The translations under genes and the position numbers were made by a program. From Rufibacter roseus (GTDB lineage: Bacteria; Bacteroidota; Bacteroidia; Cytophagales; Hymenobacteraceae): DNA of 64,000 bases. This document shows positions 52,534-55,424 of the stretch, in pieces; positions within the stretch are counted from its first letter, which is position 1, and each line of letters begins with the position of its first letter. The notes under the pieces were generated by a model. The model was not told the origin of the DNA. It searched no databases and was given only the letters and a program-made list of their open reading frames with translations. The stretch lies in assembly GCF_001647285.1 (NCBI RefSeq), contig NZ_LRML01000003.1:310001-374000 (forward strand). The letters are read 5' to 3'.

Positions 52534-53367
52534 ATGGCTATTACAGCACAAGACGTAAACAGACTTCGTCAGGAGACTGGCGCAGGTATGATGGACTGCA
52601 AAAAAGCGTTGACCGAAGCTAACGGCGACTTTGAAGCAGCCAAAGATATTCTTCGTAAACAAGGTCAGAAAATTGCCAGCAAGCGTGCTGACAACACTAC
52701 TTCTGAAGGAGCAGTGTTAACCCAAGTAAACGCTGATGCAACTGTAGGTAAAGTAATTGCCCTTGCCTGCGAAACTGAGCCTGTTTCTAAAGTAGAAGAT
52801 TTCAAAAACCTGGCGCAAGCCGTTTTAGACGCTGCCGTTTCTACAAACGCCGCTACTAAAGAAGAATTACTGGCTACGCCTCAGGCCGATGGCCGCTCAC
52901 TGCAAGATCACATCACTGACCTGATGGGTAAAATTGGTGAGAAAATTGACGTAGTTTCTTATGAGACTGTAACTGCTGAAAGAGTAGTTGCTTACAACCA
53001 CTCTAACGGTAAATTAGGTGTGTTGGTAGGTTTAACTAACACCGGTGGTAAAGAAGTAACTGAGGTTGGGAAAGACGTGGCTATGCAAATTGCCGCTATG
53101 CGCCCTATCGCTGTTGACAAAGACGGTGTAGATGCCGCTACTATTGAGCGTGAAATCGAAATCGGAAAAGAGCAAGCCCGTGCCGAAGGTAAACCAGAAG
53201 AAATGCTGGAGAAAATTGCCCAAGGTAAACTGAACAAGTTCTATAAAGAAAGCACCTTATTGAACCAGGAGTTCGTGAAAGACTCTTCTTTGACTATCGC
53301 TAAATTGTTGGATAACACCAACAAAGGCATGACCGTTACTGAATTCAAGCGTGTAGCTATCGGTTAA
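52534..53367 (+). CDS. tsf: Elongation factor Ts
   Basis: 277 residues. The N-terminal UBA-like part VNRLRQETGAGMMDCKKALT and the core with YNHSNGKLGVLVGL and MQIAAMRPIAVD identify EF-Ts, the nucleotide-exchange factor for EF-Tu. The C-terminal KIAQGKLNKFYKESTLLNQ (19 residues) is typical. Last gene of the ribosomal group, followed by a strong terminator. Confidence 0.98.
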   Translation: MAITAQDVNRLRQETGAGMMDCKKALTEANGDFEAAKDILRKQGQKIASKRADNTTSEGAVLTQVNADATVGKVIALACETEPVSKVEDFKNLAQAVLDAAVSTNAATKEELLATPQADGRSLQDHITDLMGKIGEKIDVVSYETVTAERVVAYNHSNGKLGVLVGLTNTGGKEVTEVGKDVAMQIAAMRPIAVDKDGVDAATIEREIEIGKEQARAEGKPEEMLEKIAQGKLNKFYKESTLLNQEFVKDSSLTIAKLLDNTNKGMTVTEFKRVAIG

Positions 53368-53388
53368 TTCCGCTTGTACATTCTACAG

Positions 53389-53422
53389 AAAAGCCCTGCT
53401 GTTTTCACAGCAGGGCTTTTTG
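53389..53422 (+). terminator. tsf terminator
   Basis: AAAGCCCTGCTG pairs exactly with CAGCAGGGCTTT, loop TTTTCA, followed by TTGTTTG. Confidence 0.92.
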
Positions 53423-53509
53423 TTTGGGAAATTCGATAATAACTAATCAGAACCGTCTGTTGGATTGTTGGTAATAACACCAATAATGGCAGGATGAGAT
53501 TTCTTGTTC

Positions 53510-53581
53510 TATGGCGCGGAAGTTACTTCCGTGACTAAATGAGCAGTGTATGCAAGTCACGGAAGTAACTTCCGCGCCATA
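53510..53581. repeat. REP-like element: perfect 27-bp inverted repeat
   Basis: Arms 53510-53536 and 53555-53581 are exact reverse complements, with an 18-base loop. Each arm holds a smaller palindrome GGAAGTTACTTCC. GC-richer than its surroundings. It lies in the convergent gap between tsf and the NADH dehydrogenase gene. Confidence 0.9.
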
Positions 53582-53596
53582 TAAATTAGCTGCTAT

Positions 53597-53636
53597 CTAT
53601 TTTTGGCTTATTTTTAGGAAAACAGACTAAAAATAG
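53597..53636. repeat. P40 palindrome, copy 22
   Basis: Outer CTA/TAG replaces CTG/CAG as a paired change. Forty bases, 15 bases after the REP-like element and 59 bases before the NADH dehydrogenase stop. Confidence 0.9.
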
Positions 53637-53695
53637 ACTTGTCAAAACATCATTTTCAAATCAGCACATCTTCAAATTTCCAAATCAAAAGCACA

Positions 53696-55042
53696 TTAAT
53701 CAAGATCTGCCTGCCTTCGCACAAACTCCTGTCCTGCAGTATCTTCTTTGCGCACAAACGGACGGATAATTAGACGGGTACTGTTTTCATAGGTAAAGAA
53801 CTTGTAGATCCAGTTGGCTAGAACTACTAATTTGTTTCGGAAGCCAATGAGGTAGTAAATATGCACAAAGAGCCATGCCATCCAGGCAATAAACCCGCTC
53901 AGGTGCATGTTCTTCGGCAAATCGGCAACGGCTCGGTTACGGCCAATAATAGCCAGTGAGCCTTTGTCAAAATATTCAAAAGGCTTCAGCGGCTGCCTCC
54001 GCACAATATTAACCAAGTTCTTAGCCAAGTGCTTGCCCTGCTGAATAGCGGGTTGTGCTACCCCAGGGTGTCCTTTTGGCCACTTCTCGGTTCTCATGAG
54101 AGCAATGTCTCCAATGGCAAAAATGTCTGGGAAGCCATTGACTTGATTGAAGGTATTCACTAAATAACGGCCGCGCTCGCTGGCTTCAGGTGGTAAACCA
54201 GATACGGTGGCGCCTGAAACACCGGCAGCCCAAATAAGGGTTTGTGAATATATTTGCTCACCGCCCTTAAAGGTAACCACCTTCCCGTCATATGATTCTA
54301 CCAGCGTGTTCAGCTTCACAATAATGCCTACTTCTTCTAAGTACCGTCTCGTTTTCTCACTACTTTCTGGAGACATAGGAGGCAATACTCTATCCATGCC
54401 CTCTACCAGGTATATGTTCATTTTGCTGAAATCCATACCGGGGTAATCACCAGGCAAGACGTGACGTCGCATCTCGGCTAAAGCACCAGCCAATTCAACG
54501 CCTGTAGGCCCACCGCCCACAATTACAATGTTCAGCAAACTCTGGCGTACCTCAGGGTCTTTGATCATGTTAGCCTGCTCAAAAGACTGCAGCAGCTGAC
54601 TCCGTAAGTTTAGGGCATCTGGCACCTGCTTGAGCGGGAATGAATATTTTTTGATTTGTTCATTGCCAAAGTAATTAGACTTAGTACCTGTGGCAATTAC
54701 CAAAAAATCATAGCGCAAGTCGCCTACTAAGGTGGTCACTGTTTTCTCGGCCGGGTTAATACCTGTCACTTTTACCTGCCGGAAATGGAAGTCCTCATAG
54801 TCTTCATCAAACATCTTGCGCAGGGGCTCAGCAATGGCATCGGGCTCAAGACCGGCGGTAGCTACCTGGTACAGCAATGGCCAGAAACCGTGATAATTAT
54901 TCCGGTCAAACATTACAATCTGGAACTCTTTGCCTGGCAAATTTTTAACCAGGTTGGCTCCGCCAAATCCGCCGCCAATTATGACAACGCGGGGTTTGGT
55001 AGTGTCAGGTATATTTAAGGTAAGTTGTTCTATGTGCAGCAT
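53696..55042 (-). CDS. Type II NADH:quinone dehydrogenase (NDH-2)
   Basis: 448 residues from the ATG at 55042; an ATG at 55087 adds 15 residues without family support. The FAD-binding motif VVIIGGGFGGANLV is at about 18-31 and the NADH-binding motif IVIVGGGPTGVELAGALAEM at about 172-191; the C-terminal motif WAAGVSG and FAIGDIA close the FAD site, and AQPAIQQGKHLAKN is a quinone-site signature. The C-terminus has hydrophobic stretches (IAWMAWLFVHIYYLIG) that hold it to the membrane. It transfers electrons from NADH to quinone without pumping protons. Confidence 0.94.
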   Translation of the reverse strand: MLHIEQLTLNIPDTTKPRVVIIGGGFGGANLVKNLPGKEFQIVMFDRNNYHGFWPLLYQVATAGLEPDAIAEPLRKMFDEDYEDFHFRQVKVTGINPAEKTVTTLVGDLRYDFLVIATGTKSNYFGNEQIKKYSFPLKQVPDALNLRSQLLQSFEQANMIKDPEVRQSLLNIVIVGGGPTGVELAGALAEMRRHVLPGDYPGMDFSKMNIYLVEGMDRVLPPMSPESSEKTRRYLEEVGIIVKLNTLVESYDGKVVTFKGGEQIYSQTLIWAAGVSGATVSGLPPEASERGRYLVNTFNQVNGFPDIFAIGDIALMRTEKWPKGHPGVAQPAIQQGKHLAKNLVNIVRRQPLKPFEYFDKGSLAIIGRNRAVADLPKNMHLSGFIAWMAWLFVHIYYLIGFRNKLVVLANWIYKFFTYENSTRLIIRPFVRKEDTAGQEFVRRQADLD

Positions 55043-55424
55043 AGCTCTATGAATAAGAATCTTTAAACCCGTCCATGTATAGGGCAATTGGGTAGTTCAT
55101 TTCTGTCTTATACTGTTTTTCCTGTATATAGGATGTTCTTTATGCAGAGGATTCGCAACTGACAGAAGAAAGGCCGCCATAGAATATAGTCAGACTGGCC
55201 ACTATTGCTACAAATGGCAACAGGAGCTGCTGCTTTAAAACAGTAGCGGAGGCAGTATTTTATAAATAAAGCTGCTCAAACAGAGTCAGACACTAAATTG
55301 GCTGCTCCTGTACTAGATTAGAAGAAGTGTGTTTACCAGAAATTTACTGGCATGGTGTAAACTGTTTTAGTGTTGTTTTTGCTAAAACACGCCTAAAACA
55401 GAACGAAGTAGAAAGGCTTTAGTT
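55043..55424. other. Intergenic 382 bases
   Basis: Apart from a P40 copy at 55362-55401, no gene or clear motif is seen. It should contain the NDH-2 promoter (minus strand). Confidence 0.5.
55362..55401. repeat. P40 palindrome, copy 23
   Basis: Exactly 40 bases with CTG/CAG ends; inner arms AGTGTTG and ACACGCCT are less regular. It lies 23 bases before the esterase stop. Confidence 0.82.

Follow-up and report, generated by a model that had tools for sequence, protein, structure and literature searches.

The element at positions 53509-53582 of the window, by which we mean the whole 64,000-nucleotide stretch of DNA analysed, is almost certainly a REPIN, in which two inverted REP palindromes form a mobile but non-autonomous hairpin, and its family is linked to a REP-associated tyrosine transposase (RAYT). 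This hairpin family has evidently been spread by a RAYT encoded elsewhere in the host genome. The data thereby support the interpretation given in the original prediction, which was made from the sequence alone and which saw in the hairpin a REP-like element moved by a Y1 (RAYT) transposase from outside the window.

The two exact 27-nt arms, TATGGCGCGGAAGTTACTTCCGTGACT at 53510-53536 and its reverse complement at 53555-53581, are separated by an 18-nt loop, confirming the arms, the loop length, the convergent gap and the core common to both arms as originally described; with one mismatch the arms extend to 30 nt (53507-53536 and 53555-53584). Each arm contains GGAAGTTACTTCC, on the plus strand in the left arm and on the minus strand in the right. 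The left REP (53509-53536, plus strand) begins with the foot CTAT (53509-53512) and carries the imperfect palindrome GGCGCGGAAGTTACTTCCGTGAC, the loop occupies 53537-53554 with no strand assigned, and the right REP (53555-53582, minus strand) is inverted, its foot reading ATAT on the minus strand. Within the window, the 21-mer core matches only the two arms at up to 3 mismatches and no match was obtained in 100 dinucleotide shuffles; the inverted repeat is far beyond chance. The folding of this stretch as RNA gave a single long hairpin of -52.3 kcal/mol (z -11.8), and its folding as DNA gave -34.2 kcal/mol (z -13.0).

The REPIN lies in the gap between two convergent ORF calls, at 52534-53367 on the plus strand, which we take to be elongation factor Ts, and at 53696-55087 on the minus strand, presumably an NADH-dehydrogenase-like oxidoreductase. 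A 21-nt stretch of the first gene (53312-53332) recurs at 86% downstream of it (53474-53494), perhaps as the trace of a duplicated gene end, and a perfect 14-bp hairpin followed by a T-run (53389-53420), probably the terminator of this gene, stands just past it. The P40 palindrome (53596-53637), rightly described in the original prediction as adjoining the hairpin and distinct from it in sequence, starts 14 bases past the right arm. By eye, it has counterparts in the same gap of four relatives (G008, G010, G012 and G014), in which the arms have changed yet still pair, so that P40 is older at the site than the REPIN and is perhaps under constraint; palindromes resembling it were also observed near several REP loci.

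The convergent position and the very high stability of the hairpin would also suit a bidirectional terminator or an mRNA-stabilising hairpin kept by selection and not mobile. We consider this very improbable, since copies occur in many unrelated places, the element is absent in relatives, no T-run follows the stem on either strand and the first ORF already has the T-run hairpin at 53389-53420; a terminator scan of 53300-53750 found none, though the same scan missed that T-run hairpin. Membership in a known RNA family was rejected: at a lax threshold, nearly all the models matching 53504-53589 were microRNA precursors (best 39.3 bits, 110 required), with one bacterial sRNA model at 16.6 bits, and no model reached its gathering score.

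The host genome (5.12 Mb, 39 contigs) was searched with two queries, the reversed control giving no match for either. A 25-mer derived from the arm gave 24 matches (up to 3 mismatches), and a 20-mer core gave 33, which after merging of the both-strand readings correspond to 28 positions; the hairpin, for which a genome-wide count had been proposed with the original prediction, is thus present in many copies. These 28 REP positions comprise 6 inverted doublets, that of the window included, all with offsets of 44-45, together with 14 singles and 2 positions around a transposase gene. Inspection of 20 loci (all 6 doublets, both transposase positions and 12 of the 14 singles) placed 19 of them outside ORFs of at least 100 aa. 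In a search limited to 3 mismatches, the REPs of doublets were nearer the consensus than the singles (0.75 versus 1.64 mismatches, n = 12 and 14, one-sided p 0.02). Three singles (C38:143763, C33:45967 and C35:340497) resemble, by eye, REPINs without their middle and correspond to the 'double foot' form described by Quentin et al. (2018, PMC6006769) as derived from a central deletion. The first of them (L130) is a perfect palindrome, CTATGCGCGGAAGTTACTTCCGCGCATAG, and looks like a middle-deleted REPIN.

Seven Y1_Tnp domain matches, six of them over the cut-off, were obtained in the host genome. The gene on contig C4 is bracketed by an inverted REP pair, at C4:28646 (+) and C4:29263 (-), so that a Y1 (RAYT) gene flanked by the same hairpin, which the original prediction had proposed to look for, does exist on another contig. 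The encoded protein has about 184 aa, with the motifs NHLH, FWQ, YIHQNP and FSSA read by eye. Matched by eye to a published table, these motifs appear to be those of RAYT subclass 2.6, equal to group 5 of Bertels 2017, whose members are proteins of about 179 aa from Bacteroidetes with the motifs NH[LIV]H, WQ, YIH[QN]NP and SS and with flanking structures termed atypical (Quentin et al. 2018, PMC6006769). A structure model of the Rufibacter ruber RAYT, 79% identical to that of the host (26-sequence alignment, pLDDT 92.5), had as its first PDB match 4er8, in which the E. coli RAYT binds a REP hairpin (E 4.3e-07, 17% identity); the sequence-only match to 4er8 was weak (E 0.08).

The Y1_Tnp domain of the flanked gene and the inverted hairpins at its ends would also fit the end of an ordinary IS200/IS605 insertion sequence, or a MITE derived from one by deletion. 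Such an origin is hardly credible here, since the C4 protein passes the NCBI RAYT equivalog NF047646 (109.9 bits, cut-off 80) but fails the IS200/IS605 model NF033573 (26.9 bits, cut-off 55), and the host has one RAYT gene of the CTAT-hairpin clade, at a locus syntenic with R. ruber, unlike a multi-copy insertion sequence. At the RAYT locus, continuity with R. ruber extends for 3.1 kb (76%) and suggests vertical inheritance; a comparison of the RAYT stretch with PLSDB gave no match, that is, no plasmid-borne relative.

Six more Y1 transposase genes were observed in the host genome, on C36, C3, C1, C7, C39 and C33 (L026, L027, L029-L032). The first five are flanked on both sides by inverted hairpins differing in sequence from the CTAT hairpin, the C33 gene on one side only, and the C7 gene is split across two frames. 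The hairpin of the C36 RAYT, GGCGCAAGCGTCCGCTTGTGTCC, has 75 matches in the host genome (up to 3 mismatches, control 0; for example C36:119184 and C39:228623-228696), and many of these are inverted doublets about 44-51 bp apart, forming a second, larger REPIN population.

The association of the CTAT hairpin with its transposase was then followed across genomes. Among the best 80 of 290 RAYT relatives in named genomes, the highest-ranking identities to the host protein include, besides R. ruber, Adhaeribacter rhizoryzae (72%), Sabulibacter ruber (72%) and Adhaeribacter aquaticus (71%), and the hairpin also flanks RAYT relatives in Rufibacter, Sabulibacter, Adhaeribacter, Pontibacter and Cyclobacteriaceae, all in one transposase clade. 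A tree was built from 85 RAYTs (these best 80 of 290 and five from the host genome); 18 of its rows have the REP hairpin within 300 bp of the gene at up to 4 mismatches. The hairpin label changes 3 times on this tree against a mean of 16.6 for shuffled labels, with none of 500 shuffles as low; the 18 rows sit in one 25-row clade (support 90/88, the bootstrap being rough), the other 7 rows of which lack the hairpin. A cross-locus control for hairpins flanking RAYT genes had a 99% level of 57 and a maximum of 226, high because relatives have hairpins in common; 21 of 86 loci were over this 99% level, and 62 of 86 over the largest of 430 shuffles (27), as counted by eye. The host C33 RAYT scored only 21 because its hairpins are on one side of the gene.

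When 200 genomes of the family were sampled, the REP was present in 41. It occurs in all 8 genomes with a RAYT at least 70% identical (109 copies in G009, 85 in G010, 81 in G011, 48 in G039, 22 in G000, 17 in G018, 12 in G031 and 3 in G043) and also in 33 of the 192 without a close RAYT (for instance 73 in G005, 38 in G023, 36 in G013 and 34 in G014), so that the link between REP and RAYT is not strictly one to one. In these 33 genomes, the gene could have been lost after the spread, or a distant RAYT could be acting. In G005, G013, G014 and G023 the best RAYT does not exceed about 55% identity or scores much more weakly, and their REPs are possibly orphan REPIN populations left after transposase loss.

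To describe the anatomy of the family, 69 REPINs from nine genus genomes were compared (host 6, G005 12, G009 19, G011 16, G013 5, G014 7, G010 2, G015 1 and G004 1). The distance from 21-mer to 21-mer is 15-26 nt in all 69, though 10-40 was permitted, and a search with shorter arms in G005 and G009 found a 36 nt spacer in 1 of 35 REPINs. Longer spacers occur in another genus of the family, and the long-spacer REPINs of three genomes of another genus revealed no common loop. CTAT forms 114 of the 138 feet, positions -3, -2 and -1 being T in 133, A in 135 and T in 137 of them, and GTAG is absent from the ten foot tetranucleotides listed for these feet. The foot of the family is thus CTAT, an unusual end motif departing from the usual GTAG. 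Of the two strands of the REP stem, that with CTAT has a single G-T wobble where the other has A-C, and it folds more stably (-7.0 versus -5.2 kcal/mol).

The loops are more alike than shuffled ones (mean best score 6.75 versus 2.1-2.9 in ten shuffles), a likeness partly due to orthologous pairs; paralogous loops within one genome are nevertheless clear, as at C33:40888 and C39:228487 in the host. Since some loops of non-orthologous copies are related, loop and arms were copied together in at least some cases, the loop drifting afterwards, which suggests that whole REPINs are duplicated. A derivation of the loop from the RAYT gene was rejected: GATACTGCT is found in both, but within the coding end of the host RAYT, and inspection by eye of the flanks of relatives did not reveal it, so that it is taken as chance.

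Both flanking genes of the window element were located in all 16 genus genomes. At the orthologous site of the 15 others (about 1.5 kb around each gene end), no REP was found within 4 mismatches of the 21-mer, and among the 16 the intact element is private to the host. In G008, G010, G012 and G014, whose gaps were read by eye, the P40-like palindrome is present and the REPIN absent; the other gaps measure about 1 kb or more. When the search was relaxed to 6 mismatches and two variants, G013 showed a decayed REPIN, with the variant GGCGCGGATTTACTTCCGTG (3 mismatches) and a different loop, in a longer gap between the same genes; two other matches, at 6 mismatches, lie in apparent coding sequence, and shuffled sequence yielded 7 such matches. 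The G013 element may or may not be related to that of the window, and with it an old insertion at the site, lost elsewhere, is conceivable. The readable orthologous gaps are too diverged to fix exact junctions, and a comparison of the window REPIN and five other host REPIN loci with the sequences of relatives gave no further shared REPIN. From the perfect arms, the original prediction had suggested either a recent arrival or a gene-conversion-like upkeep. The absence of an intact copy from 15 of 15 genomes is as expected for an arrival after the split, and the upkeep is not required, because exact 21-mer arms occur in 9 of the 16 genus genomes.

By analogy with known RAYT biochemistry, the RAYT would act on single-stranded DNA, probably at replication forks, where it would bind the REP hairpin with its CTAT foot and its G-T wobble, cut beside it and join the element elsewhere, in the manner of the E. 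coli TnpAREP, which cuts at CT beside the REP (PMC8266576). The CT of the CTAT foot and a second CT, located at each arm's inner end, are candidate cut sites.

Loop orientation was compared in a single pair of genomes, G005 and G009, in which nine shared REPINs were found through their flanks; the loop is inverted in 5 of these 9, and in 3 of the 7 with both flanks aligned. The inverted two-flank cases are C13:515204, C27:10847 and C9 near 26.8 kb, the non-inverted ones C9:9825, C2:20252, C35:104.2 kb and C13 near 493.3 kb (weak loop), and the one-flank cases, both inverted and possibly belonging to larger rearrangements, C24:47879 and C29:44.8 kb. This tally counts flanks of about 500 bp or longer and leaves out (i) neighbours without clearly homologous loops, such as L279/L294, L299/L308 and L263/L314; (ii) single flank matches of 53-132 bp due to other repeats; and (iii) the pair C27:86365, in a tandem-repeat region. 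For six pairs none of 5000 shuffles matched the loop score, against 1 for C29, 7 for C35 and 50 for the weak pair (C13 near 493.3 kb with C111:1512493), whose loop is partly deleted and whose right flank aligns after about 200 poorly aligned bases. In the inverted two-flank cases the alignment reaches the arms, and the inner arm bases invert too where they can be distinguished. An assembler working with very short words could be misled by arms of 24-31 bp; with this caveat, these alignments show that the loop and the inner arm bases can invert in place between two relatives.

The likeliest cause would be an exchange of strands, or a switch of template, between the two arms. An action of the RAYT itself, excising the element and re-inserting it at its former position, would be in agreement with the five inversions among nine common REPINs and with the 72% identical RAYT of G009, but it seems unlikely, given that the best RAYT of G005 is only 53% identical and that chloroplast DNA, which has no RAYT, is known to undergo small inversions between the arms of hairpins. 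We put forward, tentatively and with some doubt, that the REPINs of this family are flip elements whose loop orientation is near random between related species, driven perhaps by the RAYT or by hairpin processing at forks; if true, loop orientation could report RAYT or hairpin-processing activity, in a subclass guided by CTAT instead of GTAG. The traces of in-place inversions in genome data could reveal what becomes of REPINs between transpositions. No earlier report of REPIN loop inversion was found in an incomplete search of the literature that did not extend to the 2017 RAYT classification.

REPINs are a leading case of domesticated transposases maintaining small mobile repeats in genomes, and the REPIN papers cited here treat mainly Pseudomonas and E. 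coli. A Bacteroidota RAYT type now has a defined REP, foot and spacing, which makes binding and cutting assays possible, together with a copy census and an agreement between hairpin and clade. Like the REPINs of Pseudomonas fluorescens SBW25 (Bertels and Rainey 2011, PMC3116915), those described here lie between genes, form hairpins, are linked to a RAYT and consist of REP doublets inverted around a spacer that is less conserved; they differ in sequence and foot, in RAYT motifs of another subclass, and in a distance between arm starts of 44-45 bp instead of 71 or 110 bp. With subclass 2.6 (PMC6006769) they share the occurrence in Bacteroidetes, the motifs and flanking structures with copies elsewhere in the genome; the foot, the spacing and the doublet census are given here, and none was found for this subclass in the available text of that paper. 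The E. coli TnpAREP/REP system (4er8; PMC8266576) offers the best fold match and likewise has an imperfect palindrome with strands unlike each other, but in its REPs the foot is GTAG and there is an AA-GC bulge, compared with the CTAT foot and single G-T wobble found here. In TIRtrons, or TIRYT (PMC3733652), inverted repeats likewise enclose a gene for a Y1 transposase, and some of these repeats recur in the genome, whereas most TIRtrons belong to another subclass, 2.1 (PMC6006769), and the GGGGWSAS motif common to many of them (PMC3733652) is absent here. REPIN/RAYT systems as such are already known; the present family stands out by its unusual CTAT foot and by a loop that can invert in place between related species.
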